Assembly (NCBI RefSeq): GCF_019263705.2
Contig: NZ_JADQDK010000001.1
Coordinates: 4,836,001-4,900,000, forward strand
DNA from: Pseudonocardia abyssalis
Lineage (GTDB): Bacteria > Actinomycetota > Actinomycetes > Mycobacteriales > Pseudonocardiaceae
Direction of reading: 5' to 3'
Length of the DNA: 64,000 nucleotides
The translations under genes were made by a program, and so were the position numbers. Shown piece after piece: positions 9,193-61,495 of this stretch. Below the pieces are notes generated by a model. It made no database searches. It was not told where the DNA came from and saw only the letters and a list, made by a program, of their open reading frames with translations. The stretch's first letter is position 1. Every line of letters starts with the position of its first letter.

Positions 9193-9215
9193 CGGCGTCA
9201 ACCTTACCCGTATTC

Positions 9216-9234: not shown

Positions 9235-9253
9235 CAAAATGAGGGGGCGGACC

Positions 9254-9556: not shown

Positions 9557-9582
9557 GCCACCGACCTGGCAGCATCGACACC

Positions 9583-9825: not shown

Positions 9826-9828
9826 CCC

Positions 9829-10440: not shown

Positions 10441-10569
10441 TCGGCTACCGCTCGGCGACGCCACGGTCGTGCTCGGCGACGGGTCTCGGTCCCGTAACGG
10501 GCCGGAAGAGGGCCTCGACCAGGATCCCGGGAGACCGTACGGCCTCGACGGAGACCTGAAACGATGTTG

Positions 10570-10652
10570 TGGGCGAGGAGGGAGTTGAACCCTCACGTCC
10601 TTTCGGACACACGGACCTGAACCGTGCGCGTCTGCCATTCCGCCACTCGCCC
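10570..10652 (-). tRNA. tRNA-Leu (anticodon CAG)
   Basis: The reverse strand folds as a class II tRNA: acceptor stem GGGCGAG/CTCGCCC, anticodon stem CACGG/CCGTG around loop TTCAGGT (anticodon CAG), a long variable arm (GTCCGAAAGGAC) and T-arm GAGGGTTCAACTCCCTC. A discriminator A is at 10570; the CCA end is not encoded. Confidence 0.95.
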
Positions 10653-10787
10653 TGGCAGGTGGAAAGCTAGCACGGGTCGGGCGACCCCCCGTCGCAGACC
10701 CCCGCATCGGGGGGCGGCACGCTGGGGGGTAGCACAGATACGATCGGTGCTGTCAGCAACACGCCGTCGTGATCGGAGGAAGATCGG

Positions 10788-12074: not shown

Positions 12075-12110
12075 TCGTTCCTCAAGATCCCAGAACGGAG
12101 TTCGCCGCGA

Positions 12111-12575
12111 GTGCCGGAGTTGGTGCTGCAGCTGACCAGGGCGGGCTTCCTCGCCCTCCTCTGGCTGTTCGTGCTGGTCGCGCTCCGGGTGGTGCGGTCG
12201 GATCTGTATGCCGCGTCCGGGCTCCGGTCGATGCTGCCCGGAGGCGGTCGTGCGGCACCCCGTGGCGGGAGCCGGGGCCGCATGCCCCGGCAACTGCTCG
12301 TCACGGCGGGCGCGCTGGCGGGTACCCGGGTGTCGTTGGAGGACTCCCGGCCGATCCTCATCGGCCGGGCCGACGACTCCACCCTGGTGCTCGACGACGA
12401 CTACGCCTCGACCCGTCACGCACGCATCTCCCTGCAGGGTGAGGAGTGGTACGTCGAGGATCTCGGGTCGACGAACGGGACCTACCTCGACCGGGCTAAG
12501 GTCACCGGACCCACCCGGGTCCCCCTGGGAGTCCCTGTCCGCATCGGCAAGACGGTGATCGAGCTCCGATCATGA
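12111..12575 (+). CDS. fhaB: FHA domain protein FhaB (FipA)
   Basis: 154 residues: one N-terminal membrane helix (LTRAGFLALLWLFVLVALRVV), a basic linker and a C-terminal FHA domain ([31 protein letters not shown]). It is a membrane-anchored phospho-Thr reader. In mycobacteria FhaB/FipA links PknA/PknB signalling to division. GTG start 36 bp after fhaA, inside the cluster. Confidence 0.95.
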   Translation: MPELVLQLTRAGFLALLWLFVLVALRVVRSDLYAASGLRSMLPGGGRAAPRGGSRGRMPRQLLVTAGALAGTRVSLEDSRPILIGRADDSTLVLDDDYASTRHARISLQGEEWYVEDLGSTNGTYLDRAKVTGPTRVPLGVPVRIGKTVIELRS

Positions 12576-12621
12576 ACCGGTTCCCTTCCGGGCCCGCCGA
12601 CCGAGCCGCCGGAGCCGCCTG

Positions 12622-13950
12622 ATGACGCTGGTCCTGCGCTACTCGGCCCGTAGCGACCGCGGGCTCGTCCGGCAGAACAACCAGGACGCGGTCTACGCCG
12701 GTCCCCGGCTGCTGGCACTCGCCGACGGCATGGGCGGTCACGCCGCGGGCGAGGTCGCCTCCTCCCTGGTGATCTCCGCGCTGGCCCCGCTCGACGAGGA
12801 CGACCCCGGCGACGACCTGCTCCGCGAGCTGCGCGACGCCACCGTCGAGGGCAACGCCGCGATCACCCAGCACGTCCAGGAGGCCCCCGACCTGGAGGGC
12901 ATGGGCACCACGCTCACCGCCATCCTGTTCGCCGGATCGCGCCTGGGCCTGGTCCACATCGGCGACTCCCGCGCCTACCAGCTCCGCGCCGGCACCTTCA
13001 CCCAGATCACCAAGGACGACACGTTCGTCCAGTCGCTGATCGACGAGGGCCGGATCACCGAGGAGGAGGCGCACACGCACCCGCAGCGCTCGCTGTTGCT
13101 GCGCGCCATCACCGGCCAGGACATCGACCCGTCGCTGACGATCCGCGAGGCCCGTGCGGGCGACCGCTACCTGCTGTGCTCCGACGGCCTGTCCGGCGTG
13201 GTGAGCGACGAGACTCTGGCCGACACGCTGCGCGGCTACCGCGACCCCCGCGAGTGCGCCGACCGGATGATCGACCTGGCACTGCGCGGCGGCGGGCCCG
13301 ACAACATCACCTGCATCGTCGCCGACGTCCTCGACATCGAGTTCGGCGAGGACGCCCCGATCGTCGGCGGCGCCGCGGGCGACGGCCGCGACGACGAGGT
13401 CGCCCGGCCCGACTCCTCGGCCGCCCGGGCGTCGGCCGCCACCCTGACCCGCCCGGCCCCGCAGCGCGTCGCACCCGCCGCGCAGGCACCCGCGGCGCCG
13501 CGCTCCCGGGTGCGGCTCGTCGTCGCCGCGGTGGCGGTGCTGGTCGTGCTCGTCGGCGGCGGGTTCCTCGCCCGCGTATGGGTGCTGCAGCAGTACTACG
13601 TGGGCGCCGACACCGACCGCGTCACGATCTTCCAGGGCGTACAGGGCGACGTGCTGGGCGTGCCGCTGCACACCGTCGCCGAGCGCACCGACATCGCGCT
13701 CGACGACCTGCCCGAGTCCGACCGCTCCCTGGTCCGCGGCGGCATCGACGCGGCGGGCATCGAGGGCGCCCAGGGCGTCGTCGAGCGGCTGCGCACGAAG
13801 ATGCTCGAGCCCTGCCCGGCGCCCACCGTGCCGGCGCCGGAGACCGCGCTCGTGCCGACGCTGCCCGACGTGACCTTCCCCGACTACGGCACCACTCCGC
13901 TGCCGAGCGTGCCGCCCGAGCCGGGGATCAACTGCCGGCCGGTGGGCTGA
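12622..13950 (+). CDS. pstP: PP2C-type Ser/Thr phosphatase PstP
   Basis: 442 residues. A cytoplasmic PP2C domain (~1-235) carries all metal and phosphate motifs: RGLVRQNNQDAVY, LADGMGGHAAGE, GMGTTLTAI, HIGDSRAYQLR, LLCSDGLSG and GGGPDNITCIVADV. A Pro/Ala-rich linker, one membrane helix (~295-315) and an extracytoplasmic tail follow. It dephosphorylates PknA/PknB and their substrates. Start ATG preceded by GGAG; the stop lies 1 bp before the rodA start. Confidence 0.96.
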   Translation: MTLVLRYSARSDRGLVRQNNQDAVYAGPRLLALADGMGGHAAGEVASSLVISALAPLDEDDPGDDLLRELRDATVEGNAAITQHVQEAPDLEGMGTTLTAILFAGSRLGLVHIGDSRAYQLRAGTFTQITKDDTFVQSLIDEGRITEEEAHTHPQRSLLLRAITGQDIDPSLTIREARAGDRYLLCSDGLSGVVSDETLADTLRGYRDPRECADRMIDLALRGGGPDNITCIVADVLDIEFGEDAPIVGGAAGDGRDDEVARPDSSAARASAATLTRPAPQRVAPAAQAPAAPRSRVRLVVAAVAVLVVLVGGGFLARVWVLQQYYVGADTDRVTIFQGVQGDVLGVPLHTVAERTDIALDDLPESDRSLVRGGIDAAGIEGAQGVVERLRTKMLEPCPAPTVPAPETALVPTLPDVTFPDYGTTPLPSVPPEPGINCRPVG

Positions 13951-30110: not shown

Positions 30111-30401
30111 TCAGTCAATGGCGGTGCGCGGACTGTTTCGCCCGCCACCGTGTTCGATCGCGTTGGTCGCGGCCTCGTTGGTCGCGGCCTCGTTGGTCGC
30201 GGCCTCGTTGGTCGCGGCCTCGTTGGTCGCGGCCTCGTTGACCGCCATCACCATGTCGTCGATCCGCTCCGGGGCGAGCCCCGCCACGGCCGCGCAGTCC
30301 CGCGTGAACCGCCGCACCGCAGCCGGTTCGCCGGGCCCGAACGCCAGTACCCGCCCGACCGGCGCGGCGACGACCGGGTCGTCGCTCAGTACTTCGCTCA
30401 T
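30111..30401 (-). pseudogene. Truncated anti-sigma-factor-type ATPase with NEAAT repeat expansion
   Basis: 96 residues from the ATG at 30401. It starts like an RsbW/SpoIIAB-type ATP-binding protein (VGRVLAFGPGEPAAVRRFTRDCAAVAGLAPERIDDMVMAVNEAATN). The N-box AVNEAATNAIEHGGG is interrupted because NEAAT is present five to six times in a row. The frame stops 13 residues after EHG, so the G1/G2 ATP-lid boxes (about 50 residues in normal members) are missing. Probably a non-functional fragment; translation is possible. Confidence 0.7.
30162..30236 (-). repeat. 15-bp in-frame tandem repeat x5
   Basis: Five perfect copies of GTTGGTCGCGGCCTC (forward strand), encoding NEAAT repeats on the minus strand inside the ATP-binding N-box. 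The perfect identity suggests recent slippage expansion. Confidence 0.95.
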
Positions 30402-30462
30402 CGCGCACGGACCTCGTCTGCGGCTTCCCGTCGAGACCCGAACGGGTTGTCGCAGACTGAGA

Positions 30463-30488
30463 CTGTTCTTGATTGATTCCAGAAACAG
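30463..30488. promoter_or_regulatory. FurA-type operator overlapping furA promoter
   Basis: The sequence TTCTTGATTGATTCCAGAAA sits upstream of furA and resembles the mycobacterial furA autoregulatory element (TCTTGACTGATTCCAGAAA type), where FurA represses furA-katG. TTGATT at 30469-30474 and CACACT at 30492-30497 (17-bp spacing, 7 nt before GTG) could be the -35 and -10 of a leaderless transcript. Confidence 0.7.
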
Positions 30489-30504
30489 GGCCACACTCGG
30501 GCCC

Positions 30505-33181
<2,677 letters not shown>

Positions 33182-47892: not shown

Positions 47893-48012
47893 CGGATCCT
47901 CCGGGGGTGTTCGCGGCGGCCGGGGTGGCCTCTCGTGGACACAGATGCCGCCGACGCCTCGCGGGTTACACCGACACCGGCCGAAGCCCGACGGGCACAC
48001 GCAGCTCCCGTA

Positions 48013-48870
48013 CTACAGCTGGACCCCGGTGAGGGCATCCAGACGGACCCATCGGTCGCGGGAGCCGACACCGACCGGCGCAGGGGCGGTGAAGCGGTCG
48101 GCGGCGACGAGCGGGCCCAGGTCGAGGCCGGTGAGGGCGGCGATGTCACCGATGGGCACCTGGTAGGTGCGATACGGACCCAGCGGCGGTGGGCCCGCGG
48201 CCGGGACGGCGCCGCCGTCCGAGAGGTCGACGTCGTCGAGCTGCGGGGTCTGGTCCAGCACGTACCCCGTCGCCATCAGCAGCAGGTCCTCGCCCTGCCC
48301 CGGGGCCGCGGCCCAGGCGGCCACCTTCCAGAACGACCGCGGGATCCCGACGCCCCGGTACTGCGGGTCGTCCGCGGCCAGGACCGGGGCGGTGAACACG
48401 CTCAGCCTCGTGTCGTAGGTGTCGGCGTGGGTGAGCACGTAGTCCTCGAGACCGAGCCACAGCTGCTTGGACTGGTTGAACTGCGCCGCCTGCGGCGCAG
48501 CGTTCGGGTAGACGAACGTGTCGCTGTTGGCCTGCTCCGCGACCGCAGGCGCACCCCACACCGGATCGCTACGGCGCACCAGGTGCCCGCGGTCGAGGTC
48601 GTTGTCCAGGTACAGGTCCGCTCCGGCCTGCTCCTCCGCCCCGACCCGTGGGTCCGGGCGCCAGTCGTCACTGCGCCCGAGCTCACGCAGCTCGGACCCG
48701 TCGATGTTGACCCCGGTCGCCACCGCCAGTCGCCGGGCCGGGTCGAGCAGCACCGTGAAGTGCACGTAGGTCAGCTCCCGCACCACGCGCGTGTCCACGG
48801 GTATCGGCAGGGCGGCCGACGCACCGAGGAACTCGGCGTCGTACCCCGGAACCGGCTCTGCGGTGCTCAT
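48013..48870 (-). CDS. DNA/RNA non-specific endonuclease (NucA/EndA type)
   Basis: 285 residues from the ATG at 48870. The catalytic DRGH motif (D93-H96 in LDNDLDRGHLVRRSDPVWG) and downstream NSDTFVYPNAAPQAAQFNQSKQLWLGLEDYVL supply the beta-beta-alpha metal nuclease core with Asn ligand. No signal peptide is apparent. It would hydrolyse DNA and RNA with Mg2+. It lies 120 bp upstream of the Asp-rich protein on the same strand; a toxin/inhibitor relation is only speculation. Confidence 0.88.
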   Translation of the reverse strand: MSTAEPVPGYDAEFLGASAALPIPVDTRVVRELTYVHFTVLLDPARRLAVATGVNIDGSELRELGRSDDWRPDPRVGAEEQAGADLYLDNDLDRGHLVRRSDPVWGAPAVAEQANSDTFVYPNAAPQAAQFNQSKQLWLGLEDYVLTHADTYDTRLSVFTAPVLAADDPQYRGVGIPRSFWKVAAWAAAPGQGEDLLLMATGYVLDQTPQLDDVDLSDGGAVPAAGPPPLGPYRTYQVPIGDIAALTGLDLGPLVAADRFTAPAPVGVGSRDRWVRLDALTGVQL

Positions 48871-48954
48871 GCACAGACCCAACCACCCGTCCCACCGCGC
48901 CGTCGACGACCGGTCGGCCGCCCGGTGCGGCGGCGTTCGCACCGCGATCGGACA

Positions 48955-49795
48955 CACCCCGTGGACGTCTACGTCGACGGCACCCGCGCCCTCGACGACT
49001 TCCAGCCCGGCACGAACGCGGGCCCGGTGGACCTGCCCGCGGGCAGCCGCGAGGTCGCGATCTCCCCCGCCGACGCCCCCGACGGCTCCGGCGAGCCGCT
49101 GCTCTCCGCGACCGCCGACCTGCCCGCGGGCGGGAACGTCACGCTCGTCGCCCACCTGTCCGAGAGCGGCGCCCCGACCGTCACCCCGTTCGTCGACGAC
49201 GTCTCCCCGTGCCCGCCGGGCAGGCCCGCCTGGTCGTGCGGCACACCGCCACCGCCCGCCGTCGGCGTGCTCGCCGGTCGTGTCCGGGCTCACCAACCCC
49301 AACCAGGAGGCGCTGGGAGGTCCCCGCGGGGACCGTGTCCGCCGCGGTGGCCGCCGCCGGGACCACCGACCCCGTGATCGGCCCGGCCGATCTCGACCTC
49401 GCCGAGGGCCACCGTGACGTTCGTGCACCCCATCGGCTCGCTGGAGGCCGGGAACCTCACCTCGTCGTGTTCACGGTCGACGGGCTGCCCAGCGCGCCGT
49501 CCGGTGCGCCGTCGGGCGCCCCGTCCGGGTCCGGCCTGCCCGCGTGGGCGCTGCTGCTGGGTGTCGGCGGCGCGGCCGTCGTGGGCGTGGGCGCCCGCGT
49601 CGCCGCGGCACGGCGGCTGATCCCGCTCGAACCGCACCCGGGTCGCGGTCCGCGGCGGACGGCGCTCCTGCCGATCGTCGCGGTCCCGCTGGCCCTGACC
49701 GGGTGCGGCGGCGCGACCGGCCCCGTCGCGGCCCCGGTCGCGGCCCCGCCGGACCCGTCCACCGCGGTGGCGACCGAGCCCGCGGCCGACTGGGA
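48955..49795 (+). pseudogene. Shattered DUF4397 gene followed by a truncated lipoprotein/sortase-like start
   Basis: DUF4397-type sequence can be followed across three frames: VDVYVDGTRALDDFQPGTNAGPVDLPAGSREVAI..FVDDVSP, PAGQARLVVRHTATA, VVSGLTNPNQEAL, EVPAGTVSAAVAAAG, TVTFVHPIGSLEAGNLT and LVVFTVDGLPSAPSG, ending with a membrane anchor (PAWALLLGVGGAAVVGVGARVAAARR). About six small indels lie between 49205 and 49465. Then RRTALLPIVAVPLALTGCGGATG starts a lipoprotein-like N-terminus, as in class F sortases that often follow DUF4397 genes, but it ends where the kinase gene begins. Confidence 0.7.
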
Positions 49796-49799
49796 TGGG

Positions 49800-51170
49800 C
49801 TAGTCGTTGGCGTGTTCGGGCGGCCCGACCTGATGGTCCCTGCCCCGGCCGCCGTTGCCGGGTCCGCGATCGTTCCCGGGCCGGACCGCCTCGTCCTCGG
49901 ACAGTTCGTCCCCGCCCGTGCCGCCATCGAGCTCATCGGTGTCACCGACCGGGCCGCCGGTCGCGGCGTCGACGGAGACCGCGTCGGGAGACCGTGCCGC
50001 AGAACCGACGCTGACGGACGTGTCCGGGGCGACGGAGACCTCGCTCGGCCCGGCTCCGGAAGGCAACGGGGCCCCGATCGGCGCGGCCGCATCCTGCCGG
50101 CCCATCACAGATCCGGTCGGCACCGCGGACCCGGTCGGCGGCGGCGCCACCTCAGCGGGCGCTGCAGACTCGACGACCGGGGGGGTCGGTACCCACGTGG
50201 TCACGCTCGACCCGGCCGCGCCGAGAACCAGCAGCGGTCCGACCACGCAGGTCGCGGCGGCCAGCAGGCCCCGCCGCGAGCGGGAGTGCCCGGCCCGGAG
50301 AGCCGGTGCGCGCAGCCCGACCGTCGAGGTCGGCGTGTCCGACAGCATCGTCGCCACCTCGGCCGCCCCGGGGCGCCGCGACGGATCGGTCCGGGTCATC
50401 GCCTCGATGGTCGAGCCCAGTATCGGCGGTAGCCCACCCGGCACCCGGGGCGACCGGCTCAAGCGGGCCACAGCCGACTCCACCGCCGATCCCGGGTACT
50501 CCCGTCGACCGGTCAACGCCTCGATCAGCACCAGCCCCAGCGCGTAGACATCGGTGGCCGGGCCGACGTCGTGACCGCCCACCTGCTCGGGCGACATGTA
50601 CGCGGCGGTGCCGACGACCGCCCCGGCCGTCGTCGCCGTCGCCCCGTCGATGGTCCAGGCGACGCCGAAGTCGGCCAGCAGGGGGCGCCCACCGCTGTCG
50701 AGCAGGACGTTCGCCGGCTTGACGTCCCGGTGCACGAACCCGCCCGCGTGCACGACCGCGAGGGCGGCCGCGACCACCGCCCCCACCCGTCGGACCCGAT
50801 CCGACCCCCACGGTCCCTCGGCCAGTGCCTGTGCGAGCGTCGGCCCCTCGACCAGCTCGGTGACGACGAACGGGCGCGGACCGGTGGGGTCACCGTCGAG
50901 CAGACGGACGAGACCCGGATGCCGCAGCCGCGTCAGGGCGTCGACCTCGCGGCGACGCCTGCGGTGATCCACCGGGGAGCCCGCGGTCGAGAACAACTTG
51001 ACTGCGACGGCCCGTCCCGTGCGAACGTCCTCGGCACGGTGGACCACCGCCGAGGACCCGACCCCGAGGACCTCACGCAGCACGTAACACCCGCCCAGGA
51101 GACCGTCCGCATGGTCCGCCCCCGGCGATCTCGTCGTCACACGCACCGCATTCCCCGTTCGCGCCCACAT
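49800..51170 (-). CDS. Orphan membrane Ser/Thr protein kinase
   Basis: 456 residues from the ATG at 51170 (another ATG at 51221 is possible). Kinase domain with GVGSSAVVHRAED, VAVKLF (K58), HRDVKPANVLL, ADFGVAWT, MSPEQ and ALGLVLIEALTG. A membrane helix (GLLAAATCVVGPLLVLGAAG) separates a ~130-residue extracytoplasmic tail rich in Pro, Ser, Gly and acidic residues with no known sensor domain. Not part of the growth-control cluster; target unknown. Confidence 0.9.
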   Translation of the reverse strand: MWARTGNAVRVTTRSPGADHADGLLGGCYVLREVLGVGSSAVVHRAEDVRTGRAVAVKLFSTAGSPVDHRRRRREVDALTRLRHPGLVRLLDGDPTGPRPFVVTELVEGPTLAQALAEGPWGSDRVRRVGAVVAAALAVVHAGGFVHRDVKPANVLLDSGGRPLLADFGVAWTIDGATATTAGAVVGTAAYMSPEQVGGHDVGPATDVYALGLVLIEALTGRREYPGSAVESAVARLSRSPRVPGGLPPILGSTIEAMTRTDPSRRPGAAEVATMLSDTPTSTVGLRAPALRAGHSRSRRGLLAAATCVVGPLLVLGAAGSSVTTWVPTPPVVESAAPAEVAPPPTGSAVPTGSVMGRQDAAAPIGAPLPSGAGPSEVSVAPDTSVSVGSAARSPDAVSVDAATGGPVGDTDELDGGTGGDELSEDEAVRPGNDRGPGNGGRGRDHQVGPPEHAND

Positions 51171-51447
51171 CAAGCACGAGCCGGCAGGGACGGCGACTCG
51201 AAGTCCTTCGCCCTCCGACATACACGCGTGCGGTGTCGTACCCCGCCCGACCGGCACGAGCCCGGCTGATCGGCCGACTGCGCCGCTCGTCACCATACCG
51301 GCACGACACGCACCGGAAGTCGCAGCGCTACCGGTTGCCGCGCTTTCCGAGCACCATTCACCTCACCGGCGAGATTCGTCTATTCAGACCATCGCCTTTG
51401 GCATTCGGACGGCGCCGAGCGGGCCGCAGTGGTAGGAGTCTGAACTC

Positions 51448-51859: not shown

Positions 51860-52138
51860 ATGACCGTCACCGGCATCATCACTGCAATCGTCATCGGCGC
51901 GATCATCGGCGTTCTGGCGCGGCTCATTCTCCCGGGAAAGCAGAACATCCCGATCTGGCTGACCATCGTCGTCGGAATCGTCGCCGCGCTTCTCGGCACC
52001 TTCCTGGCCCGCGCCCTCGGCCTGCCGACCGCCACCAACGGCATCGACTGGATCGAGCTCCTCGTCCAACTCGTCCTCGCAGTCATCGGTGTCGCCATCG
52101 TCTCCGGCACCTACGGCCGGCGAGGCGTCGCCCGCTGA
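51860..52138 (+). CDS. GlsB/YeaQ/YmgE family stress-response membrane protein
   Basis: 92 residues with three membrane helices: IITAIVIGAIIGVLARLILPGKQNIPIWLTIVVGIVAALLGTFLARALGL..WIELLVQLVLAVIGVAIVSG, the transglycosylase-associated protein pattern (Gly-rich helices, ARLILPG). Members are induced by general stress. AGAGGAACC precedes the ATG at 51860. Stands 48 bp before the sigma-factor gene. Confidence 0.9.
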   Translation: MTVTGIITAIVIGAIIGVLARLILPGKQNIPIWLTIVVGIVAALLGTFLARALGLPTATNGIDWIELLVQLVLAVIGVAIVSGTYGRRGVAR

Positions 52139-52186: not shown

Positions 52187-53155
52187 GTGAACTCGTCGAC
52201 CCGTTCCGGGACCCGGGCACGCACTGATGCCGGAGGCAACTGCACGACTCACGAGGGACGATCTCGATCGGTGGCGCCGAACAGGTCTGGCCGCCGGGTC
52301 GATGAGTACTCGGATCTCCGACCGCTCCTGGCCCGGTTCGCCGGCCTCCCGACCGATGACCCCCTGCGGCGAACGCTGCAGGAGGAACTGGTGATCGGTT
52401 TCCTTCCGGTGGTGCAGCACATCGCCCGCCGGTATCGCAACAGCGGCGAGCCCTCCGCCGATCTGGAACAGGTCGGCACCATCGGACTGCTGGGCGCACT
52501 GAAACGGTACGACCCCGGAACAGGCAAGGACTTCCTGAGCTTCGCCGTGCCGACCATCACCGGCGAGATCAAACGTCACTTCCGCGATCGAGCCTGGTCG
52601 ATGCATGTTCCCCGCCCGGTGAAAGACCTCCACTCACGCCTTCCCGCAGCCATCCAGGAACTGTCGGCCGCTACTGGACGGGCGCCGCGACCCAGCCAAC
52701 TCGCGATCCACCTCGGTGTGGACACCGAGAAGGTCCTCGAGGCTCTGCACGCCCGACACACCGATCGGAGCAGTTCCCTCGACGAGCACCTCTCGGACTC
52801 CGACACAGAACTGGGCGACGTCCTCGGACGTCCCGACCCGGGGTTCGACCTGACCGACGACCGGCTCGGGCTCCGCTCGGCCCTCTCGGTCCTGCCCGCC
52901 CGTGATCGGTACGTCGTGGGACTCCGCTTCTTCGACGACCTCACCCAGACGCAGATCGCGGAACGGATCGGGGTGTCCCAGATGCACGTCTCCCGGATCC
53001 TCGCGAGGTCCCTCGCCGTGCTGCGTCGCAGTCCGGCCTTCGATCACGCGGACTCCCACGACGGCACGGCTACCGCGACGTGCCCGGGCGACGGCCCGCA
53101 TTCACCGGTCGTGCCGAACCGTTGTCGTGGGCCGTCGGGCCGAGCCGCGCGATGA
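52187..53155 (+). CDS. SigB/SigF/SigG-type RNA polymerase sigma factor
   Basis: 322 residues from the GTG at 52187 (ACAGGG upstream). Region 2 (LVIGFLPVVQHIARRYRNSGEPSADLEQVGTIGLLGALKRYDPGTGKDFLSFAVPTITGEIKRHFRDRAWSMHVPRPVKDL), region 3 and region 4 (LPARDRYVVGLRFFDDLTQTQIAERIGVSQMHVSRILARSLAVLR) are those of group 3 stress/sporulation sigma factors. It is normally held by an RsbW-like anti-sigma factor and released by SpoIIE-type phosphatase signalling; a multi-GAF SpoIIE phosphatase is encoded 4 kb away. Confidence 0.93.
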   Translation: MNSSTRSGTRARTDAGGNCTTHEGRSRSVAPNRSGRRVDEYSDLRPLLARFAGLPTDDPLRRTLQEELVIGFLPVVQHIARRYRNSGEPSADLEQVGTIGLLGALKRYDPGTGKDFLSFAVPTITGEIKRHFRDRAWSMHVPRPVKDLHSRLPAAIQELSAATGRAPRPSQLAIHLGVDTEKVLEALHARHTDRSSSLDEHLSDSDTELGDVLGRPDPGFDLTDDRLGLRSALSVLPARDRYVVGLRFFDDLTQTQIAERIGVSQMHVSRILARSLAVLRRSPAFDHADSHDGTATATCPGDGPHSPVVPNRCRGPSGRAAR

Positions 53156-53515
53156 CCCGGGCCTCGGTTCCCGCGGGGCATGACCACTGCATGCGGTCGC
53201 GGCCGTAGTCGTGGAGTCGTCATCGGGCCGACCGAACACACCCCGCTCTCGCGCTCGCCCCATCCCGCCCGGCGAGGAGCAGCACACCGACCGTCGGGCG
53301 CGATCCCTACGCGCTGGGCCGGTGTCCTCCGACCGCGGAGCTGACCATCGCGACCTCCCTACCCAGGTGCGGGTCGGCCCCCCGGCGGTCCGCCGTCTCG
53401 CCCATCAGCGCCGCGATCAGGAGCAGGCCGCGGCGCCGGCCCTCGGCGAGGCCGCGGTCGCCTGATCAGGCGTGGGGACCGCGAGAACTCGGTCGACCTG
53501 TAGCTGGTGGATGGC
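53156..53515. other. 360-bp gap between convergent sigma factor and heme oxygenase genes
   Basis: No gene supported. An 84-codon open frame at 53211-53465 lacks a start signal and family similarity. No repeat or clear terminator stands out. Confidence 0.5.
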
Positions 53516-54181
53516 TCAGGAAGGAGGTCGCGACACGACCCGGACGCGGCCCTCACCGGCCGGACCCGCGGGCCGTCCCAGGCCGTCCGGCCGGCCCGGA
53601 AGTGGCCACGGCACCTGCGCAGCCGCCGCCGCTCCGATGACGTCGAAGGCGAGCTGTGCCCCGCTGAGGGCGCCGGCCAGGGCCGCCGGGGTGTCGAGGT
53701 CCGCTGTGGCGCGCTGGAAGCGGGCCCAGTCAGCGCCGGGATCCATGCCGCTGCGGCGGAAGAACCCGGTCGCCTCACCTCGGACGAGACCGAGTTCGTG
53801 CTCGACGACGGGGGCGATCGCGCGGCCGCCCATCGCACTGCCGAGCAGGACGTAGCGGGCGCCGACCGCTTCGGGAAGCGACCCGAAAGGTCGCAGTGCC
53901 ACCACGTGCGCGGCGGGGGTGTCGGGCCGGCCGAGGACGTCGAGGTCACGGTGCAGGAGGTCCGAGGCGTCGCCGAGCCGGGGATCGAGACCCACCTCGG
54001 CCCAACCGTCCACTCCGTGCAGGGCCTCCTCGAGTGGCTGCCACGCGGTCACGAGGGCGTGCAGCAGGACGGCCAGGTCCGTGCGGGTACGAACGGAGCC
54101 GGGCAGCCCCAGCCGGGCGTCCAGACGCGCGTGGCAGGTGCGTGTGTGGGTGCGCAGGTGCTCCGCCAGGAGGGATCGCAC
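53516..54181 (-). CDS. bphO: Biliverdin-producing heme oxygenase (BphO-like)
   Basis: 221 residues. Starts LLAEHLRTHTRTCHARLDARLG, with the proximal-His motif (H17) of HemO/BphO, and has the distal-helix Gly-rich segment ARYVLLGSAMGGRAIAPVVEHEL. It opens haem to biliverdin, the chromophore of the bacteriophytochrome encoded just upstream (6-bp gap). The C-terminal ~45 residues are Pro/Gly/Arg-rich and probably disordered. GTG start. Last gene of the operon. Confidence 0.88.
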   Translation of the reverse strand: MRSLLAEHLRTHTRTCHARLDARLGLPGSVRTRTDLAVLLHALVTAWQPLEEALHGVDGWAEVGLDPRLGDASDLLHRDLDVLGRPDTPAAHVVALRPFGSLPEAVGARYVLLGSAMGGRAIAPVVEHELGLVRGEATGFFRRSGMDPGADWARFQRATADLDTPAALAGALSGAQLAFDVIGAAAAAQVPWPLPGRPDGLGRPAGPAGEGRVRVVSRPPS

Positions 54182-54187
54182 GGCGGG

Positions 54188-56497
54188 TCAGCTCCGACCT
54201 GGCGGGGTCGTGGGAAGGGTGAGCCAGAAGGTGGCCCCGTGCCCGAGGTCGGAGTCGACCCAGAGCCGGCCGCCGTGGCGCTCGACGATCTTCCGGGCGA
54301 TCGCGAGGCCGGCCCCCATGCCGGAGCCGCGGTCCGGGTCCAGCCGCCGGAACAGCCGGAACACGTCTTCGTGGTGGTGGGGTGCGATCCCGATGCCGTT
54401 GTCGCGCACGTACACGGCATCGACCGAACCCCGGGTGTGCGGTGGCTGGACGGGCGCAGTACCGATGTCGACCCAACGGGGTTCGTCGTGGGCGTATTTG
54501 ATGGCGTTGACGACGAGATTCGTGAGCACCTCGCGCAGCAGTGCCCGCTCGCCGGAGACGACCGGGAGCGCGCTGGATCTGCGGATCCGGACGCCCGCCG
54601 CGGACGCGCGTTCGGCGACCAGCTCGATGACCTGGTCGGCGAGGGTGGTCATGTCCACGGTTGCGGTGCCGGGTTGGCTGCGGCCGACCTGCGAGAAGTG
54701 CAGCAGCGAGGTGAGGAGCTCGTCCATCCGCCCGGCGAGCACGCGGGTCGTCTGCAGCCGGCGGACGGTGCCGGCGTCGAGGTCCGGGGCGTCCTCGAGG
54801 GCGAAGTCCGCCGAGTTCGCGATTCCTCGCAGAGGCTCCTTCAGGTCGTGGGCGACGACGTAGGCGAACGAGTCGAGATCGTCGTTGCTCCGTCGGAGCT
54901 CGGCGTTGGCCTCGCCGAGCTCGGCCGCATGCCGCAGGACGAGCTCGGACACGGCCCGTCCCAGACTGGTGGCCAGCTCCACCTCGGTGGCCGACCAGGG
55001 CCGTGAGCGGCCGCGGACGGTCTCGCGCCAGACGCTGTGCGAGCCGCGTGGGCTCAGCCGCTGGCCGCGCGAGCCGATCACTGCAGGACGCGACGGATCG
55101 GCCGCCCACTCGACCGTGCGCAGGATCTCCGGCCGGAACCAGGCGATCAGGTCGCCGTCACCGCTGAGCGGGAGCACCAGCACCCCACTCGTCGGCCCGG
55201 CGAGATCGGCGAACTCCGGGAACGCCGCCGACAGCCGGTCGGTGCTCCAGACGGACCCCGGCGGCCCGATCGGCAGCCGGTCGAGGAGGTCGGCGACCAC
55301 CGTGGCGTCGGGCAGGTCCCCGCGGCCGTCGATCCGGCCGTGGAGCCGGACGAGCGCCCCGGAGGCGGGGACGAGATCGAGGAGGCCGTGGTCGTCGGCG
55401 AGTAGTGCGGCCGGCGGCCCGGCGGGGATGGCGGTGACGATGCGCGTCAGGGTGGTGTGCGCGTCGGCCCGGGCCCTCTCCTGCTCGCTGCGCTCGATCG
55501 CCACCAGCTGCAGCGACAGCGCTGCGCCGAGGAACTCGCAGGCGGCGCGCGTCTCCGGGGCCAGGAGCAGTGGCCGTGAGTGGTGACAGGCCACCAGACC
55601 CCAGAGGCTTCCGTCTTTGATCAGGGAGATCGACATCGATGCGGCGACACCGATGTTGCGCAGGTAGTCGAGGTGGTAGGGGGACAGGCTGCGCAGCACC
55701 GAGCCCGACAGATCGAGGGGCCGGTCGGTGCCCGGGACGGTGGGCGGCACCAGCGCGGCGGACGGGTCGTCGACGTCGGCGATCGACCTGATCCAGTTGC
55801 GCAGGTAGAGCCTCCGGGCCTGGGGCGGCACGTCGATCGCCGGGAACCACAGGCCGAGCCAGGACTCCCAGTCCGGGTGACGGTCCTCCGCGATCACGTG
55901 GCCGGGCCCGTCACCGTCGAAGCGGTAGATCACGACCCGGCTGTAGCCGGTCAGTCGCCGGATCTCCTCCACCGCCCGGTCGGCGAGTTCGACCACGGTC
56001 GGGGAGCTCTGCAGGGTCTGCAGCGTTCGCCGGATGCGGCCGGTGAACGCGGAGAACGCGAACGGTCCCTCCCGTCGGGCCGGTTCGAACTCGCAGAGGA
56101 CCAGGCCGTCGCTACGACTCACCGTCACGTCGACGTCCGTCGCCGCGTCAGGTCCCGGCTCACCGAGGTGCTCCAGGCGCATCGGCAGCAGCGAGGACTC
56201 ACCCGCTGCGAGGTCGTGGACGGCGCGACGGAGCAGCTCGGTCTGGCCTGCGCCGATCAGGTCGGTGATCGGACGTTCCAGCAACCGGTCCGGTTCCCGG
56301 CCCAGCACCGGCCCCGAGTTGGCACTCACCACCCGCACCACCAGGGCCGTGTCCACGGCGACGAGCACACCGTGGGACTGCGTGGCCCCCAGGAGATGGA
56401 TCGGCTCGGACCGGCATACCTCGAGGTCGACCGGGGTGCCCGACGCGTACTCCGCCGCCGCGTCGAGAGCCGTGTCGTGGTCGACGGCCCGGCTCAT
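54188..56497 (-). CDS. bphP: Bacteriophytochrome sensor histidine kinase
   Basis: 769 residues. A PAS domain with the biliverdin-binding Cys (C28 in LEVCRSEPIHLLGATQSHGVLVAVD); a GAF domain with the DIP-type motif (FPAIDVPPQARRLYLRNWIRSIADVD) and RFDGDG; a PHY domain; then HisKA (SFAYVVAHDLKEPLRGIANSADFAL, phospho-His) and HATPase (NLVVNAIKYAH, RDNGIGIAP, GSGMGAGLAIARKI). It senses red/far-red light and phosphorylates its partner regulator. The ATG start overlaps the response regulator stop by 4 bp (ATGA). Confidence 0.96.
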   Translation of the reverse strand: MSRAVDHDTALDAAAEYASGTPVDLEVCRSEPIHLLGATQSHGVLVAVDTALVVRVVSANSGPVLGREPDRLLERPITDLIGAGQTELLRRAVHDLAAGESSLLPMRLEHLGEPGPDAATDVDVTVSRSDGLVLCEFEPARREGPFAFSAFTGRIRRTLQTLQSSPTVVELADRAVEEIRRLTGYSRVVIYRFDGDGPGHVIAEDRHPDWESWLGLWFPAIDVPPQARRLYLRNWIRSIADVDDPSAALVPPTVPGTDRPLDLSGSVLRSLSPYHLDYLRNIGVAASMSISLIKDGSLWGLVACHHSRPLLLAPETRAACEFLGAALSLQLVAIERSEQERARADAHTTLTRIVTAIPAGPPAALLADDHGLLDLVPASGALVRLHGRIDGRGDLPDATVVADLLDRLPIGPPGSVWSTDRLSAAFPEFADLAGPTSGVLVLPLSGDGDLIAWFRPEILRTVEWAADPSRPAVIGSRGQRLSPRGSHSVWRETVRGRSRPWSATEVELATSLGRAVSELVLRHAAELGEANAELRRSNDDLDSFAYVVAHDLKEPLRGIANSADFALEDAPDLDAGTVRRLQTTRVLAGRMDELLTSLLHFSQVGRSQPGTATVDMTTLADQVIELVAERASAAGVRIRRSSALPVVSGERALLREVLTNLVVNAIKYAHDEPRWVDIGTAPVQPPHTRGSVDAVYVRDNGIGIAPHHHEDVFRLFRRLDPDRGSGMGAGLAIARKIVERHGGRLWVDSDLGHGATFWLTLPTTPPGRS

Positions 56498-56907
56498 GCG
56501 GTCACGGCCCCGCCGTGCGGGAGCCAGTAGTCGAGGGCACCGCACAGCGCGGCACAGAACATGGCGTAGTCGACCGGTTTGAACACGTAGCCGTTGGCCC
56601 CCGCCCGGTAGCACTGCTCGACGTCGCGTGGATCGGTGGAGGACGTCAGCACCACGACCACGAGGTCGGCGAGCTCCGGCCGACCCCGGATCTCGCTCAG
56701 CACGCTGCGCCCGTCGACCCCGGGCAGGTTCAGGTCGAGCAGCACGACGTCCGGTCGGCCGACGGTGTCATCGAGCAGCCGGTCGAGCGCACGACGGCCG
56801 TCGGCGATCGCCTCCAACTCCGTCGTGGGGTACGACCGGGCCATGGTGCGCTGCACGGCTTCGACGTCCTCGGCGGAGTCCTCGATCATCAGGACCAGAT
56901 CAGTCAT
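56494..56907 (-). CDS. Phytochrome-type single-domain response regulator
   Basis: 137 residues: a receiver domain alone (MIEDSAEDVEAVQRTM, phospho-acceptor D58 in VVLLDLNLPGVDG, Thr/Ser switch in VVLTSS, Lys in YVFKPVDY), of the Rcp1 family paired with phytochromes. Its output is by protein contact. Overlaps both neighbours by 4 bp (ATGA), so it is translationally coupled to the kinase. Confidence 0.95.
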   Translation of the reverse strand: MTDLVLMIEDSAEDVEAVQRTMARSYPTTELEAIADGRRALDRLLDDTVGRPDVVLLDLNLPGVDGRSVLSEIRGRPELADLVVVVLTSSTDPRDVEQCYRAGANGYVFKPVDYAMFCAALCGALDYWLPHGGAVTA

Positions 56908-57230
56908 CCGTGCTCCATCTCGACCTCACACCAGAACCCCGGCGCCATCCCGTCGAGTGCTCCCAGACGCAACGCCGCCGTGTGGAAGGGGCCCTCGCCC
57001 ATCGGGGGCGGTTGCCGGTCGCCCCCGACGCCTGGCGGTGACGCGACCGCCACACGAAGCTCGAAACGCAGGCCGCGGCCGAGTTCGAAGACCACCAGCT
57101 CGCACCCCGACTCCGCGGCGGTGGTCCACCGGTCGGCGAGATGCCCCACGATCGTCGCGATGACGCTCGGCCGTTCGGTGGGCCGGCGGTGTCCCACCCT
57201 GCCCAGGCCGTCGATCACCGCGGCCCGCAC
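56904..57230 (-). CDS. Small hypothetical protein in phytochrome operon
   Basis: 108 residues from a GTG: AAVIDGLGRVGHRRPTERPSVIATIVGHLADRWTTAAESGCELVVFELGRGLRFELRVAVASPPG..GPFHTAALRLGALDGMAPGFWCEVEMEHG. An alpha/beta protein without recognised motif. It may be a diverged, truncated member of the anti-sigma or phosphatase-partner class, given its place between the SpoIIE phosphatase and the response regulator with ATGA overlap. I cannot name the family. Confidence 0.65.
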   Translation of the reverse strand: MRAAVIDGLGRVGHRRPTERPSVIATIVGHLADRWTTAAESGCELVVFELGRGLRFELRVAVASPPGVGGDRQPPPMGEGPFHTAALRLGALDGMAPGFWCEVEMEHG

Positions 57231-57266
57231 CCGACCGGCGAGGTACTGCCCGGGAGGAATCGTGGT

Positions 57267-60044
57267 CTAGAGGACCGGCTGACCGCGCAACCGCACGGCC
57301 ACCATCGCGACGTCGTCGTCGTCGCGGTCGCGGTACCTCGCCAACAGGTCCGAGATCCGGTCGAGCAACAGACCGGACGGGAGGCCGGCGGAATCGGCCA
57401 GACCCAGTAACAGCCCATCGGTCTCGAGCATGCCGGCCGGGCCACGCGACTCGGTCACGCCGTCGGTGTAGATGAGCACGGTGTCGCCGGCATCGAGGCG
57501 GATCGATGTCTCCGCGAACGGAGGATCGCCGATCGCCCCGAGCATGGGGTTCACCGTCCCGATCTCTTCCGGAGGCTCGCCCGCGCGGATCAGTACGGGA
57601 AGGGGATGGCCGGCGGCACACACCGTGACCTCGGTGTGCAGGCCGTCGACCGAGATGCTGATCACCACGGCCGTCGTGAGCCGCTCGTACCCCGGGATGC
57701 TGCTGCGCAGGGTGCGGTTGAGCCGGGACAGCGCGGCGGAGGGGCTGGCACCGTCCTCCAGCACCACCCGCAGTGTGTGCCGCGCGATCGCGGTGATGCC
57801 CGCGGCCTGCGGCCCGCGCCCGCACACGTCCCCGATGACGACGGCCAACGAACCGTCCGGGCGCGGGACGGCGTCGTAGAAGTCGCCGCCGATGCCCAGC
57901 GCGGTGTCTGCGGGGTGGTAGCGGGCGGCCAACTCGATATCGGGGAGCTGTGGCAACGACGGTGGCAAGAGCCTGCGGGCCAGGGCCCGGGCCGCCTCGT
58001 CGCGCTGCTGGTACAGCAGAGCGTTGTCGATGGCGACCGCGATGCGCGAGACCAGCGACTCCACGAACGGGATCCGCGGGGGCCGTCCGCCCAGACCGGG
58101 CCGGGCCTGGGCGAGGGAGACCACGCCGAGCAGTCGGCCGTGTGCTCGCAGTGGCACCGACAGCACCCAGCACCCGGCGACGGTGCCGACCTCGGTCCGG
58201 CCGCCGGCCAGTACCCGCTCGGCCAGTCCGAAGCCGGCAGTGCTGCCCGCAGTCGGGTGCGTGGCCCGCTGCTGCTCCGTCCACATCTCCGCCTCGGCCC
58301 GGGCGTCGACGTGGGCGACGGCGGCCGGACGCAGGGTTCCGTCGTCGACGAGATGCACCACGCACCGCCCGGCGAGACCCGGGACCGCGATCCGGGCGGC
58401 GCGCGCCAGCGTCTGTTCGACGTCCAGTCCGAGATCGAGCTGCGACGACGCCTCCATCAGGAAGGCCATCTCCGCGCGGACAGTCTCGTCCTGCCCGGCG
58501 AGCTCGATACGGGCGAGACTCCTGGCGAGCACTCCGGCCATCTCTCCGATCACGTCCTCACCACTCGATCCGATGCGTCGGCCCCCTTCCAGGGCCAGCA
58601 CGATCACGGCGGGCCGGGCCGTGGGCAACGGCCAGGCCACCACCGCCGGGGCGCCGAGGACGAGCAGGTCCGGCAGCAGCGCGGAGAACCGCGCCATCAC
58701 CTCCGTCAGGTCGGGTGCGTGCACCGGTAGGTGCAGCTGGAGGCACTCCTGGACCCCGGGGGTGGAGTACGCGGCGTCGACAGCCAGCCCGCGCATCGCA
58801 CCCGGGGCCGGATCGCGGTCGCCGGACCCGGGTGCCGGGACGAACGCCGCTCCCTTGACCCCGGGCAACCGGGTCAGGTGATCGACAGCGATCTCGGCGA
58901 CCGCGGCGGCGGTCTCGGTCCCGATCAGTGAGTCCCGCAGCGCCCTGAGCCGCGCCGCCCGGTCCGCCGCTCTCCGCTGGTCGCGGAGAGCAGCCTGCAT
59001 GGCCAGCTCGTGGCCGACCGCAGCGGCCACGTCGGTGAGGGAACCGACGGCGGATGCAGGCCATTCGCGCGGTGACCGATCGACGACGCACAGCGCGCCG
59101 ATCACGTGTCCCTCGCTCGAGATCGGAACTCCGATGTAGGCACCCACGGCCCCGGACGTCACCGCCGGCAACGAGCTGAGTCGGCCGTCCCGGGTCGCGT
59201 CCGGGATCTCCACCGGCCCGTCCTCGGAGAGCGTGACCAGGCACAGCGATTCCTCGACGGGCTGATCGGCCCCGAGCGGACCCTCTCCGTGACCTCCGAC
59301 CACGGTGCGGTCCTGATCGACCAGCGCGACATGGGCGAGGGGCGCGTCGCACACTCCCGCGGCCAGCCGCGCGAACCGGTCGAGGCCGGCCCGCACGTTC
59401 CCGACCGAGTACCGCAGCCGTTGCACCGCGGCCAGCCGACCAGGGTCGGAGAGCGGGATGCACACCCGCCGGGCGCCGGGCGGACCCACCGTGATCCCGT
59501 CGGCGATCCGGGCGAGCGCGCCCGCGATCTGATCCGACAGCGCCAGCAGGAACAACCGCTCAGCGGCGGAGAACGAGTGCTCCCCGGTGAACGCGACACC
59601 GAGTACGCCCAGCTCGCGGTCGTCCGCGACGAGGGGAAGCGAAGCCGTCGCGCCGAACCCCGACCCGATCGCCGCGAGAGCGGGATAGAGCTGCTGCTTG
59701 ACCAGGACACTCGGGAGCCAGACGGCACTGCGCCGACGGAGGGCGTCGGTGATGGGCAACGTCTCGTCGTAGGGGATCAACTCCCACCCGTCACTCGAAC
59801 GACCCATCCTGAGGCTCCCTGCGAGACTCAGGCCGTCGTGACGACACAGGTAGAGCACCGCACCCGCGGCCCCGATCGCACCGACACCCTGCCCGAGCGC
59901 CACCGACCCGAGATCGTCCAGACTCATCGATTCAGCACAGGCTGCGGACACCATCTGCAGCCGGGCCAGGAGTGGATACGCCTCTTCGGCATCGGATCGC
60001 GACCTCGACAGCTCGCCGAGCCCGGGCAAGTCTGGCTCCAGCAC
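57267..60044 (-). CDS. Multi-GAF SpoIIE/RsbU-type PP2C phosphatase
   Basis: 925 residues. Four GAF-like sensor units in sequence (about 20-190, 215-360, 385-515, 530-670), e.g. LGVLGVAFTGEHSFSAAERLFLLALSDQIAGAL and PISSEGHVIGALCVVDRSPREWPASAVGSL. The C-terminus (~690-925) is SpoIIE/PP2C: ARYHPADTALGIGGDFYDAVPRPDGSLAVVIGDVCGRGPQAAGITA, VCAAGHPLPVLI, LIYTDGVTESR, DDDVAMVAVRLRG. Such phosphatases activate an anti-anti-sigma factor. GTG start. It heads the minus-strand operon with the phytochrome. Confidence 0.93.
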   Translation of the reverse strand: MLEPDLPGLGELSRSRSDAEEAYPLLARLQMVSAACAESMSLDDLGSVALGQGVGAIGAAGAVLYLCRHDGLSLAGSLRMGRSSDGWELIPYDETLPITDALRRRSAVWLPSVLVKQQLYPALAAIGSGFGATASLPLVADDRELGVLGVAFTGEHSFSAAERLFLLALSDQIAGALARIADGITVGPPGARRVCIPLSDPGRLAAVQRLRYSVGNVRAGLDRFARLAAGVCDAPLAHVALVDQDRTVVGGHGEGPLGADQPVEESLCLVTLSEDGPVEIPDATRDGRLSSLPAVTSGAVGAYIGVPISSEGHVIGALCVVDRSPREWPASAVGSLTDVAAAVGHELAMQAALRDQRRAADRAARLRALRDSLIGTETAAAVAEIAVDHLTRLPGVKGAAFVPAPGSGDRDPAPGAMRGLAVDAAYSTPGVQECLQLHLPVHAPDLTEVMARFSALLPDLLVLGAPAVVAWPLPTARPAVIVLALEGGRRIGSSGEDVIGEMAGVLARSLARIELAGQDETVRAEMAFLMEASSQLDLGLDVEQTLARAARIAVPGLAGRCVVHLVDDGTLRPAAVAHVDARAEAEMWTEQQRATHPTAGSTAGFGLAERVLAGGRTEVGTVAGCWVLSVPLRAHGRLLGVVSLAQARPGLGGRPPRIPFVESLVSRIAVAIDNALLYQQRDEAARALARRLLPPSLPQLPDIELAARYHPADTALGIGGDFYDAVPRPDGSLAVVIGDVCGRGPQAAGITAIARHTLRVVLEDGASPSAALSRLNRTLRSSIPGYERLTTAVVISISVDGLHTEVTVCAAGHPLPVLIRAGEPPEEIGTVNPMLGAIGDPPFAETSIRLDAGDTVLIYTDGVTESRGPAGMLETDGLLLGLADSAGLPSGLLLDRISDLLARYRDRDDDDVAMVAVRLRGQPVL

Positions 60045-60471: not shown

Positions 60472-60987
60472 GTGTTCGTGAACGACGGGGCGAGACTGGC
60501 AGCGGCCATCCGGCAGATCGTCCTGACCGTCGAGCGGTACCGCCTGCAGGCGGCCAGGACCGCGTTCGGCGTCGGGGACACCGAGATGGAAGCCCTCTCA
60601 CAGCTGTTCGTCACCGAGTCGAGCACTCCGACCGAACTCGCGCGTCACCTCCACCTGACAACCCCCTCCGTGACAGACCTGGTCGACAGGCTCGTCTCGG
60701 GTGGCCTCGTGGTGCGCAGTTCGCATCCGACAGACCGGCGGAAGATCGTCGTGACGCTCAGTGCGACCGCCCGGTCGAAGATGGAGGACATGTTCGCCGT
60801 GGTCACCGACGTGACCTTGCGGGCGACCGAGACTCTGACACCTGCCGAGCGCACGATCGTGATCGACTGCCTGGCCTCCGTCTCCGACGCCTACGAGGAG
60901 ACGATCGCGGCTATGACGGCCGGCCCAGGCGGCCGCTTCGCCGCGCACATCGCCTCCCCCGCCGCCGTGCCGCCCGGCCCACCCTGA
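60472..60987 (+). CDS. MarR family transcriptional regulator
   Basis: 171 residues: winged HTH (SSTPTELARHLHLTTPSVTDLVDRLVSGGLVVRSSHPTDRRKIVVTLSATARSKME) with the DRR wing. GTG at 60472 or the next GTG at 60478 may be the start. It may act on itself through the triplicate repeat upstream. Immediately followed by a histidine-kinase relic. Confidence 0.88.
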   Translation: MFVNDGARLAAAIRQIVLTVERYRLQAARTAFGVGDTEMEALSQLFVTESSTPTELARHLHLTTPSVTDLVDRLVSGGLVVRSSHPTDRRKIVVTLSATARSKMEDMFAVVTDVTLRATETLTPAERTIVIDCLASVSDAYEETIAAMTAGPGGRFAAHIASPAAVPPGPP

Positions 60988-61085
60988 TCGACACCTCGTG
61001 GATCGTCCGGGCCGGCAGCGTGCAGATCGACCGGCTCACCCCCGGCACCCGGGTCGTCGTCCGTCTCCCGGTGGGTACGGCATGA
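60984..61085 (+). pseudogene. C-terminal remnant of a sensor histidine kinase
   Basis: A 33-codon piece (RAGSVQIDRLTPGTRVVVRLPVGTA then stop) matches the end of HATPase_c domains. The original ATGA overlap with the response regulator start is still there. The rest of the kinase is gone; the MarR gene ends at the break. Confidence 0.65.
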
Positions 61086-61495
61086 CCCGGGTGCTCGTGG
61101 TCGACGACCACCCGATGTTCCGCCGTGGACTCATCGCACTGCTCGAAGCCGGCGGGTACGACGTGGTGGCCGAGGTGATCACCCTGTTCGACGACGAAGC
61201 CTCGGTGAGGGCCGTGCTCGACGCCGGTGCAGACGGCTACATCGTGAAGGAATCCTCGCCCGAGCAGATCATCGCGGCGCTGGACGCCGTGCGGATGGGC
61301 ACGCAGTGGCTGGGCAGCAGTGTCCCGCGGCCCGGCGGATCCACCGCCGCCGCCTCGCCCGACCCGGTCGTCCCCGGCCCGTCGCGCCGGAATCGGCAGT
61401 GGCCGAACTGCTCGGACGCGGCCTGACCGACCAGGTGATCGCCGCCCGCCTCGGCCTGTCCGCCGAGACGGTCGCCCACCACGTCTCCACGATCC
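61082..61495 (+). pseudogene. Decayed NarL/LuxR-type response regulator
   Basis: Starts MTRVLVVDDHPMFRRGLIALLEAGGYDVVAE, then jumps directly to VITLFDDEASVRAVLDAGADGYIVKESSPEQIIAALDAVRMG: about 45 residues with the phospho-acceptor Asp are missing. After a frameshift near 61380 the LuxR HTH appears in another frame (ESAVAELLGRGLTDQVIAARLGLSAETVAHHVSTI) and breaks off before its end. Three lesions make it non-functional. Confidence 0.85.

Follow-up and report, generated by a model that had tools for sequence, protein, structure and literature searches.

A linked bacteriophytochrome, single-domain response regulator and SpoIIE-type phosphatase in Pseudonocardia abyssalis and other actinomycetes

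Introduction

What does a phytochrome control when its gene stands in one operon with a Ser/Thr phosphatase? The question is raised by a locus of Pseudonocardia abyssalis (genome 6.3 Mb), contained in a stretch of 64,000 nt (NZ_JADQDK010000001.1, 4,836,001-4,900,000; hereafter the window). Here an operon encodes a SpoIIE-type PP2C phosphatase, a 108-aa protein, a single-domain response regulator (RR), a bacteriophytochrome histidine kinase (BphP) and a probable heme oxygenase (HO). An earlier account made from the DNA letters alone (the sequence-only reading) had placed these five genes in one minus-strand operon, and every one of them was found to be present. It had also taken the operon for a phytochrome input into a stress-sigma pathway; of this proposal, the coupling of BphP, RR and SpoIIE was borne out by a conserved gene unit and by trees, while the local sigma factor and GlsB genes did not hold up as its output.

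We consider it probable (roughly 60%) that the operon encodes a red/far-red two-component front end that acts through a Ser/Thr phosphatase instead of a DNA-binding regulator, with a signal that would run from BphP to the RR, to SpoIIE and on to STAS partner switching.

Results and Discussion

Conservation of the BphP, RR and SpoIIE genes

When 200 genomes of the family were searched with the BphP sequence (E<=1e-30), 84 matched, own genome included, mostly in the kinase part only, and the nine non-self genomes with a match that starts at residue 25 or earlier were fetched. Of these nine, eight (L133-L140) carry a trio of BphP, RR and SpoIIE genes, with BphP identities of 46-50% and the BphP gene divergent from the SpoIIE-RR pair. 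The ninth (G388) encodes a hybrid of BphP, histidine kinase and receiver (REC), whose HATPase Pfam did not recognise, and after it a REC-GAF-SpoIIE protein. Among 396 genomes of the phylum, six besides the window genome matched at E<=1e-70. Three of these, all from one other family, carry the trio with a convergent BphP gene (L162-L164), two carry a BphP-SpoIIE fusion (L165 and L166), and the sixth (G761, cut by a contig end and apparently the same record as L112) is without SpoIIE in the stretch examined. A further convergent trio was identified on the Streptomyces sp. NBC_01558 plasmid NZ_CP109366, annotated as 'GAF domain-containing SpoIIE family protein phosphatase', 'response regulator' and 'ATP-binding protein'.

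Counting the window, the trio occurs in three gene orders, and SpoIIE adjoins the RR gene in 12 of 12 trio loci although the placement of BphP varies. Based on the number of SpoIIE genes per genome, a SpoIIE gene within ~5 kb of BphP would be expected by chance in ~0.4 of 12 trio genomes (the window genome and 11 relatives, a set that excludes G388 and the plasmid record) and was observed in all 12; these genomes are not independent by descent, and G150 and G083 are near twins. A search for conserved gene order, which the sequence-only reading had suggested, is thus positive for SpoIIE, RR and BphP, in other orders than that of the window.

The trees agree with the linkage. In a tree of 67 PP2C sequences, the window SpoIIE and the 12 trio SpoIIEs form one clade of 13 rows (support 95/86). 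In a tree of 93 RR sequences, where many forks are unresolved with too few columns, the window RR falls in a clade of 15 rows (100/99) together with the 12 trio RRs and two RRs encoded beside MASE1 kinases (L142 and L143).

Operon layout and encoded proteins

The coordinates are given in Table 1. The junctions between the 108-aa and RR genes and between the RR and BphP genes are ATGA overlaps, as had been described for the operon as a whole; the BphP and HO genes are separated by 6 nt and the SpoIIE and 108-aa genes by 36 nt. A single sigma-70-like site (n=1) lies upstream of SpoIIE and is not used as evidence.

Table 1. Genes of the operon and its convergent neighbors (window positions)
Feature	Position	Strand	Basis
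GAF-containing SpoIIE/RsbU-type PP2C phosphatase, 925 aa	57267..60044	-	PF07228
108-aa protein, no known family	56904..57230	-	ORF, codon-position G+C
Single-domain RR, Rcp1 (phytochrome RR) type	56494..56907	-	PF00072
Bacteriophytochrome histidine kinase (BphP), 769 aa from ATG	54188..56497	-	PAS-GAF-PHY-HisKA-HATPase
Probable heme oxygenase (BphO, HO)	53516..54181	-	weak PF01126
SigB/SigF-type sigma factor, convergent neighbor (context only)	52187..53155	+	TIGR02980
GlsB-like small membrane protein, upstream of sigma factor (context only)	51860..52138	+	PF04226

The BphP protein matches PAS_2, GAF, PHY, HisKA and HATPase, all above the Pfam cut-offs, and its best solved relatives, 8uph and 9ys3, are both bacteriophytochromes. 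The motifs VCRSEPIH (with the chromophore Cys) and DVPPQ (with the GAF Asp) and the GAF His align with 17 relatives, and the residues of the H-, N-, G1- and G2-boxes are retained; we take these to have their usual roles in chromophore binding and kinase activity. By domains and residues the protein is predicted to be a bacteriophytochrome histidine kinase. With 295 bits against a threshold of 1040 for the NCBIfam equivalog NF041576, it would be a phytochrome that is distinct from this named equivalog.

The HO gene product scores 17.4 bits against PF01126, under the gathering cut-off of 23, and matches at 34% over ~133 aa an HO-like gene adjoining the trio in L134, which itself scores above the cut-off (31.9 bits). 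Based on its position and on this similarity, it is a probable heme oxygenase for biliverdin supply. A genome-wide PF01126 scan of the window genome (E<=0.1) gave no match and missed even the linked gene, so that other divergent heme oxygenases may be overlooked. In G333 the sole PF01126 match is weak and adjoins the trio, and in the remaining 11 of 13 genomes searched a strong match lies apart from the trio (~12 kb off in G414). A weak linked HO was found in exactly the two of 13 genomes without a strong match, and by this pattern chromophore supply seems to be covered throughout these genomes, by a local gene wherever a strong one was not detected at another place.

The RR consists of a single receiver domain (PF00072, 68.2 bits), and its solved relatives include RcpB (1k66), RcpA (1k68) and Rcp1 (1i3c). 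As a single receiver that is linked to a phytochrome and resembles Rcp1, RcpA and RcpB, it is classed as an Rcp1-type regulator.

The SpoIIE protein scores 130.8 bits against PF07228 (cut-off 25). Its GGDFY, GDVCGRG, TDG and near-terminal DD motifs, which we take to be the metal-site motifs of SpoIIE, line up with eight relatives, two of which have SDG instead of TDG. The PF07228 match and the metal-binding Asp motifs place it, as a predicted enzyme, among the SpoIIE/RsbU-type PPM phosphatases. The sequence-only reading had counted four GAF domains; Pfam backs three (GAF_2 and GAF with three stretches each), and the segment between the second and the third gives no match when searched alone.

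Fused forms and related kinase cassettes

A scan of a named genome collection with the window BphP gave 483 matches, of which the best 80 were analyzed; counts of fusion loci and of other BphP loci below refer to these 80 unless L165 and L166 are added. In all 12 loci from Nocardioides, Cellulomonas and Aeromicrobium (two of them from one strain) BphP and a SpoIIE (PP2C) domain share one open frame, and the same holds for 14 of 14 when L165 and L166 are included. A Pfam check of two fusions (L109 and L165) revealed neither HisKA nor HATPase. The 13 fusion SpoIIEs in the PP2C tree, as well as those of the kinase cassettes described below, fall in clades apart from the trio. The other 68 loci belong to other phyla, except for the Thermoleophilia metagenome-assembled genome (MAG) L112; 38 of them have an RR match, 11 an HO match, one a SpoIIE match and none a SigF match, many flanks being cut by contig ends. 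The sole SpoIIE-bearing locus (L065, an Eremiobacterota MAG) encodes in one direction a BphP (7848-10298), an RR (10304-10744) and a REC-GAF-SpoIIE-HATPase_c_2 protein (10741-13380), the last two genes being joined by an ATGA overlap.

Similar arrangements were found with other sensors. In the window genome itself, a cassette at L144:5484-8670 encodes a REC-SpoIIE protein, a CHASE3-HAMP kinase and an Rcp1-type RR in a row, between ORFs that by appearance are purine genes. Among 18 kinase loci drawn from the weaker kinase matches (L035-L052), 17 have SpoIIE homology and all 18 an RR match within ~1.5 kb. The phytochrome trio can be seen as the light-sensing version of this broader kinase, RR and SpoIIE design.

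From the PP2C and RR trees, phytochrome and SpoIIE have been coupled in at least two separate SpoIIE clades, with receiver-SpoIIE fusions in others, as expected if the phosphatase is the output. We suggest, as a tentative proposal that falls somewhat short of even odds, that red/far-red front ends for partner switching arose repeatedly in actinomycetes. In these, a phytochrome kinase would address a diffusible receiver and this a GAF-SpoIIE phosphatase, as a relay from His-Asp to Ser/Thr phosphorylation in which the receiver would switch the phosphatase. Trio, direct fusion and receiver fusion (the last in G388 and the Eremiobacterota MAG) would then be separate ways to reach one wiring, one of them with an RsbW-like kinase domain.

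The same loci bear on a different explanation, in which BphP and RR work on other targets as a closed pair of the Cph1/Rcp1 kind, and SpoIIE responds to ligands of its own GAF domains and has only a promoter region or regulon in common with them. The many other BphP loci with an RR match and the single one with SpoIIE speak for it, as do the closest relatives of the window RR (L142 and L143), which have no SpoIIE match nearby, and the orientation of BphP in the trio relatives, where it is divergent from or convergent with the SpoIIE-RR pair and hence on its own transcript. We nevertheless regard such a pair as unlikely, since SpoIIE stays beside the RR in every trio locus despite the rearrangement of BphP, and since receiver-SpoIIE and BphP-SpoIIE fusions exist.

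Proposed signaling route

The preferred route, from phytochrome to phosphatase, would start with biliverdin from the linked heme oxygenase, which would load the BphP kinase. Light would shift the balance between the kinase and phosphatase activities of BphP and with it the phosphorylation state of the Rcp1-type RR. The RR may in turn bind the GAF-SpoIIE protein; the probable site is the stretch of GAF domain and helical linker through which PPM phosphatases dimerise. SpoIIE would then dephosphorylate STAS-type anti-anti-sigma proteins encoded elsewhere and so shift a partner-switching network. Whereas the loci directly show the genes as a unit, the recurrence of this unit and its fusions, we infer the contact between RR and SpoIIE, the STAS substrate, the sigma factor reached and the sign of the light effect. 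The available text of PMC12143880 gives evidence that PPM phosphatases are controlled by GAF and receiver domains by way of coiled-coil linkers; it reports RsbU to be activated by linker-mediated dimerisation and predicts the same for phosphatases headed by GAF or receiver domains. An RR that binds at the GAF/linker region is thus a natural assumption.

Several observations weigh against this route. In the genus, ten other genomes yielded no BphP (at E<=1e-30 the matches were kinase-only or none), and a close SpoIIE copy was not found in 61 other genomes at E<=1e-60 (62 genomes searched, own included), a cut-off that could miss trio copies of ~37% identity. The 12 kb fetched around the RRs closest to that of the window, L142 (60%) and L143 (61%), are devoid of SpoIIE matches. 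With SpoIIE near only one of the 68 other BphP loci, the coupling of BphP and SpoIIE appears bound to certain lineages. The phytochromes themselves deviate in the tongue, whose motif is PRxSF. The window protein has PRGSH, and PRGS followed by S, A or G was found in 12 of 12 trio relatives (L133-L140, L162-L164 and L170), while the Phe is present in L065, L168 and three aligned fusions. Its absence from all 13 trio phytochromes is a common mark of this BphP lineage in the alignment, and the photochemistry may be altered because the motif's F is missing. Finally, a STAS match was not detected in the flanks of the 12 trio loci or in the window, and RsbW-like matches were detected in only three of the 12 flanks (L134, L164 and L170), both with few queries at E<=1e-3; partner switching as the output therefore rests on knowledge of the family. 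An RsbW-like ATPase match also adjoins the fusion L166.

Candidate outputs

The window sigma factor scores 247.1 bits against TIGR02980 (cut-off 234.35) and is of the SigB/SigF/SigG type (SigBFG), and the GlsB-like protein just passes the PF04226 cut-off (25.5 against 25.3 bits). Both genes converge on the operon from the plus strand, as the sequence-only reading had it, the GlsB-like gene lying outside the 52187..60044 which that reading covered. The presence of a SigBFG-type sigma factor above cut-off beside the operon invites the view that the operon specifically controls SigF and the GlsB-type gene in a local light-to-stress-sigma circuit, and RsbU/RsbP-type phosphatases do act on sigma-B partner switching according to the available text of PMC8346170.

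The comparative data make such a circuit quite unlikely. A tblastn search with both window proteins (E<=1e-3) of the 14-18 kb that surround each of the 12 trio loci gave no relative of either, and the same was true of L165, L166 and L168; SigF is present in one of the 14 fusion loci (L130, 32%) and in none of the 68 others. The 18 kb fetched around the best same-genus relative of the sigma factor (G844, 67-68%) contain no trio, although they do contain a second sigma factor of the same type and weak SpoIIE and RR matches. SigF-type promoters follow the pattern GTTT-N13-18-GGGTA, and no such site occurs in the window. A tblastn search with one STAS, one RsbW and six HATPase queries gave no intact RsbW or STAS gene in the window, its sole match being 34 residues at 30.2 kb, inside a truncated RsbW-like frame ~22 kb away. 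This HATPase frame (~30114-30668, minus strand) carries a five-fold NEAAT repeat at the N-box, ends soon after and looks truncated. By this search, the window does not have the RsbW-type anti-sigma and STAS genes beside phosphatase and sigma factor that characterize a partner-switching operon. Two other SigBFG sigma factors above cut-off are encoded in the genome, one with an adjoining RsbW-like gene, and STAS, SpoIIE, an RsbW-like ATPase and a SigBFG sigma factor stand together at ~3.803-3.809 Mb, ~1.08 Mb away. Because of the trio flanks, G844 and this distant set, the adjoining sigma factor is a weak candidate and probably a bystander that is not part of the module, and any STAS protein of the cell may serve as substrate. 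The sigma and GlsB genes find no support as the output that had been assigned to them.

Substrates other than STAS proteins were also considered. PP2C enzymes reverse Hanks-type Ser/Thr kinases in bacteria, and a gene for such a kinase (Pkinase; 49800-51296, minus strand) lies near the GlsB/SigF pair, ~6 kb from the SpoIIE gene, so that SpoIIE might act on Hanks kinase substrates. We judge this very improbable, since the GAF-headed PPM phosphatases RsbZ and OsaC are described in the available text of PMC12143880 as general-stress phosphatases, and since the Eremiobacterota fusion couples SpoIIE with an RsbW-like ATPase domain.

The 108-aa protein

The codon-position G+C of the 108-aa ORF (0.77/0.56/0.85) is like that of the adjoining genes, and the ORF is therefore probably a real gene. 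The sequence-only reading had put its product forward as the link to examine first, a role that finds no support, as the protein has no convincing relative in 298 genomes of the order or 390 of the family. It has no Pfam or NCBIfam match, a search of plasmids gave nothing, and the AF2 model has a pLDDT of 40. The order search gave matches in 13 non-self genomes (best E 1.1e-5); the best sits in a frame that by eye is LysR-like, and on re-examination of nine of the 13 loci it was judged to be chance. So were the one non-self match in the family (E 2.5e-4, with two internal stops) and a PDB sequence match to FkbI (E 2.5e-4 over the whole chain, best stretch 14 bits).

In the eight family relatives with a trio, SpoIIE has ~70 extra C-terminal residues where the window has the 108-aa ORF, and in L162-L164 the SpoIIE match stops near the RR, with little space for an extension. 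The extension gave an hhalign score of 25.5 against RsbW-like ATPases (probability 39%), where the highest of 100 column shuffles reached 17.0, but the aligned part spans no more than 23 columns; this weak similarity is suggestive only, perhaps of a shrunken anti-sigma domain. Homology of the 108-aa protein to the extension was rejected (hhalign 8.4, below the shuffle mean of 10.5), and its own comparison with RsbW (HATPase_c_2) amounted to noise (0.4 bits with a 30-sequence profile; hhalign 13.8 against a median of 11.1 and a maximum of 16.5 in 100 shuffles). The protein is probably a lineage-specific accessory that, by positional analogy, possibly plays the part of the C-terminal extension.

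Relation to known systems

A description of the BphP, RR and SpoIIE trio was not found in the open-licence papers searched. Like Cph1/Rcp1-type pairs, the window system combines a PAS-GAF-PHY-HisKA-HATPase sensor with a co-operonic single-domain RR that has Rcp1, RcpA and RcpB among its solved relatives, and unlike them it keeps SpoIIE beside the RR, as only one of the 68 other BphP loci does. Phytochromes fused to a SpoIIE/PPM phosphatase domain are noted in the available part of PMC9587094. They likewise aim phytochrome sensing at a SpoIIE phosphatase, but as one polypeptide, without HisKA or HATPase in the two fusions checked and with SpoIIE domains of a separate clade. RsbU, RsbP, RsbZ and OsaC, as presented in the accessible portions of PMC12143880 and PMC8346170, share with the window enzyme GAF, PAS or receiver domains ahead of a PPM phosphatase and serve stress sigma control; the substrate of the window enzyme is putative, and the word phytochrome does not occur in the accessible portion of PMC12143880. 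The L144 cassette also unites kinase, single-domain RR and SpoIIE, and differs in its CHASE3-HAMP sensor, in the fusion of a receiver to SpoIIE and in its separate SpoIIE and RR clades.

Red light activates SigB in Bacillus subtilis and Listeria, where, in the text available from PMC3019169, mechanism and receptor are stated as unknown; the likeness is red light acting on a SigB network, and the difference is that no receptor or mechanism is identified there. Excerpts of a review (PMC12627116) connect the response of SigB to light with blue-light receptors, and a bacteriophytochrome of Pseudomonas with genes for water stress. A possible link of a photocobilin to SpoIIE/STAS is suggested in the portion available of PMC10979010. 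In the trio, receptor, relay and phosphatase are genetically linked in several actinobacterial lineages, and each step is open to assay with purified proteins. If the proposed route is correct, light joins the inputs of SpoIIE/STAS/sigma networks in actinomycetes and a Ser/Thr phosphatase that red light can switch is ready to hand; if such front ends have indeed been built repeatedly, light would set sigma and development networks of many actinomycetes.

Other genes of the window

Divergent from the operon lies a gene for a MarR-family regulator (60472-60987, plus strand). It is followed by a seemingly broken NarL/LuxR-type RR (60998-61426, plus strand, and 61306 onwards), in which the receiver match falls in two stretches and a piece that by eye resembles a helix-turn-helix is in another frame. 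At 47935-49428, ORFs on opposite strands overlap, with matches to Endonuclease_NS (minus) and DUF4397 (plus); the Pfam-matched stretches themselves are non-overlapping.

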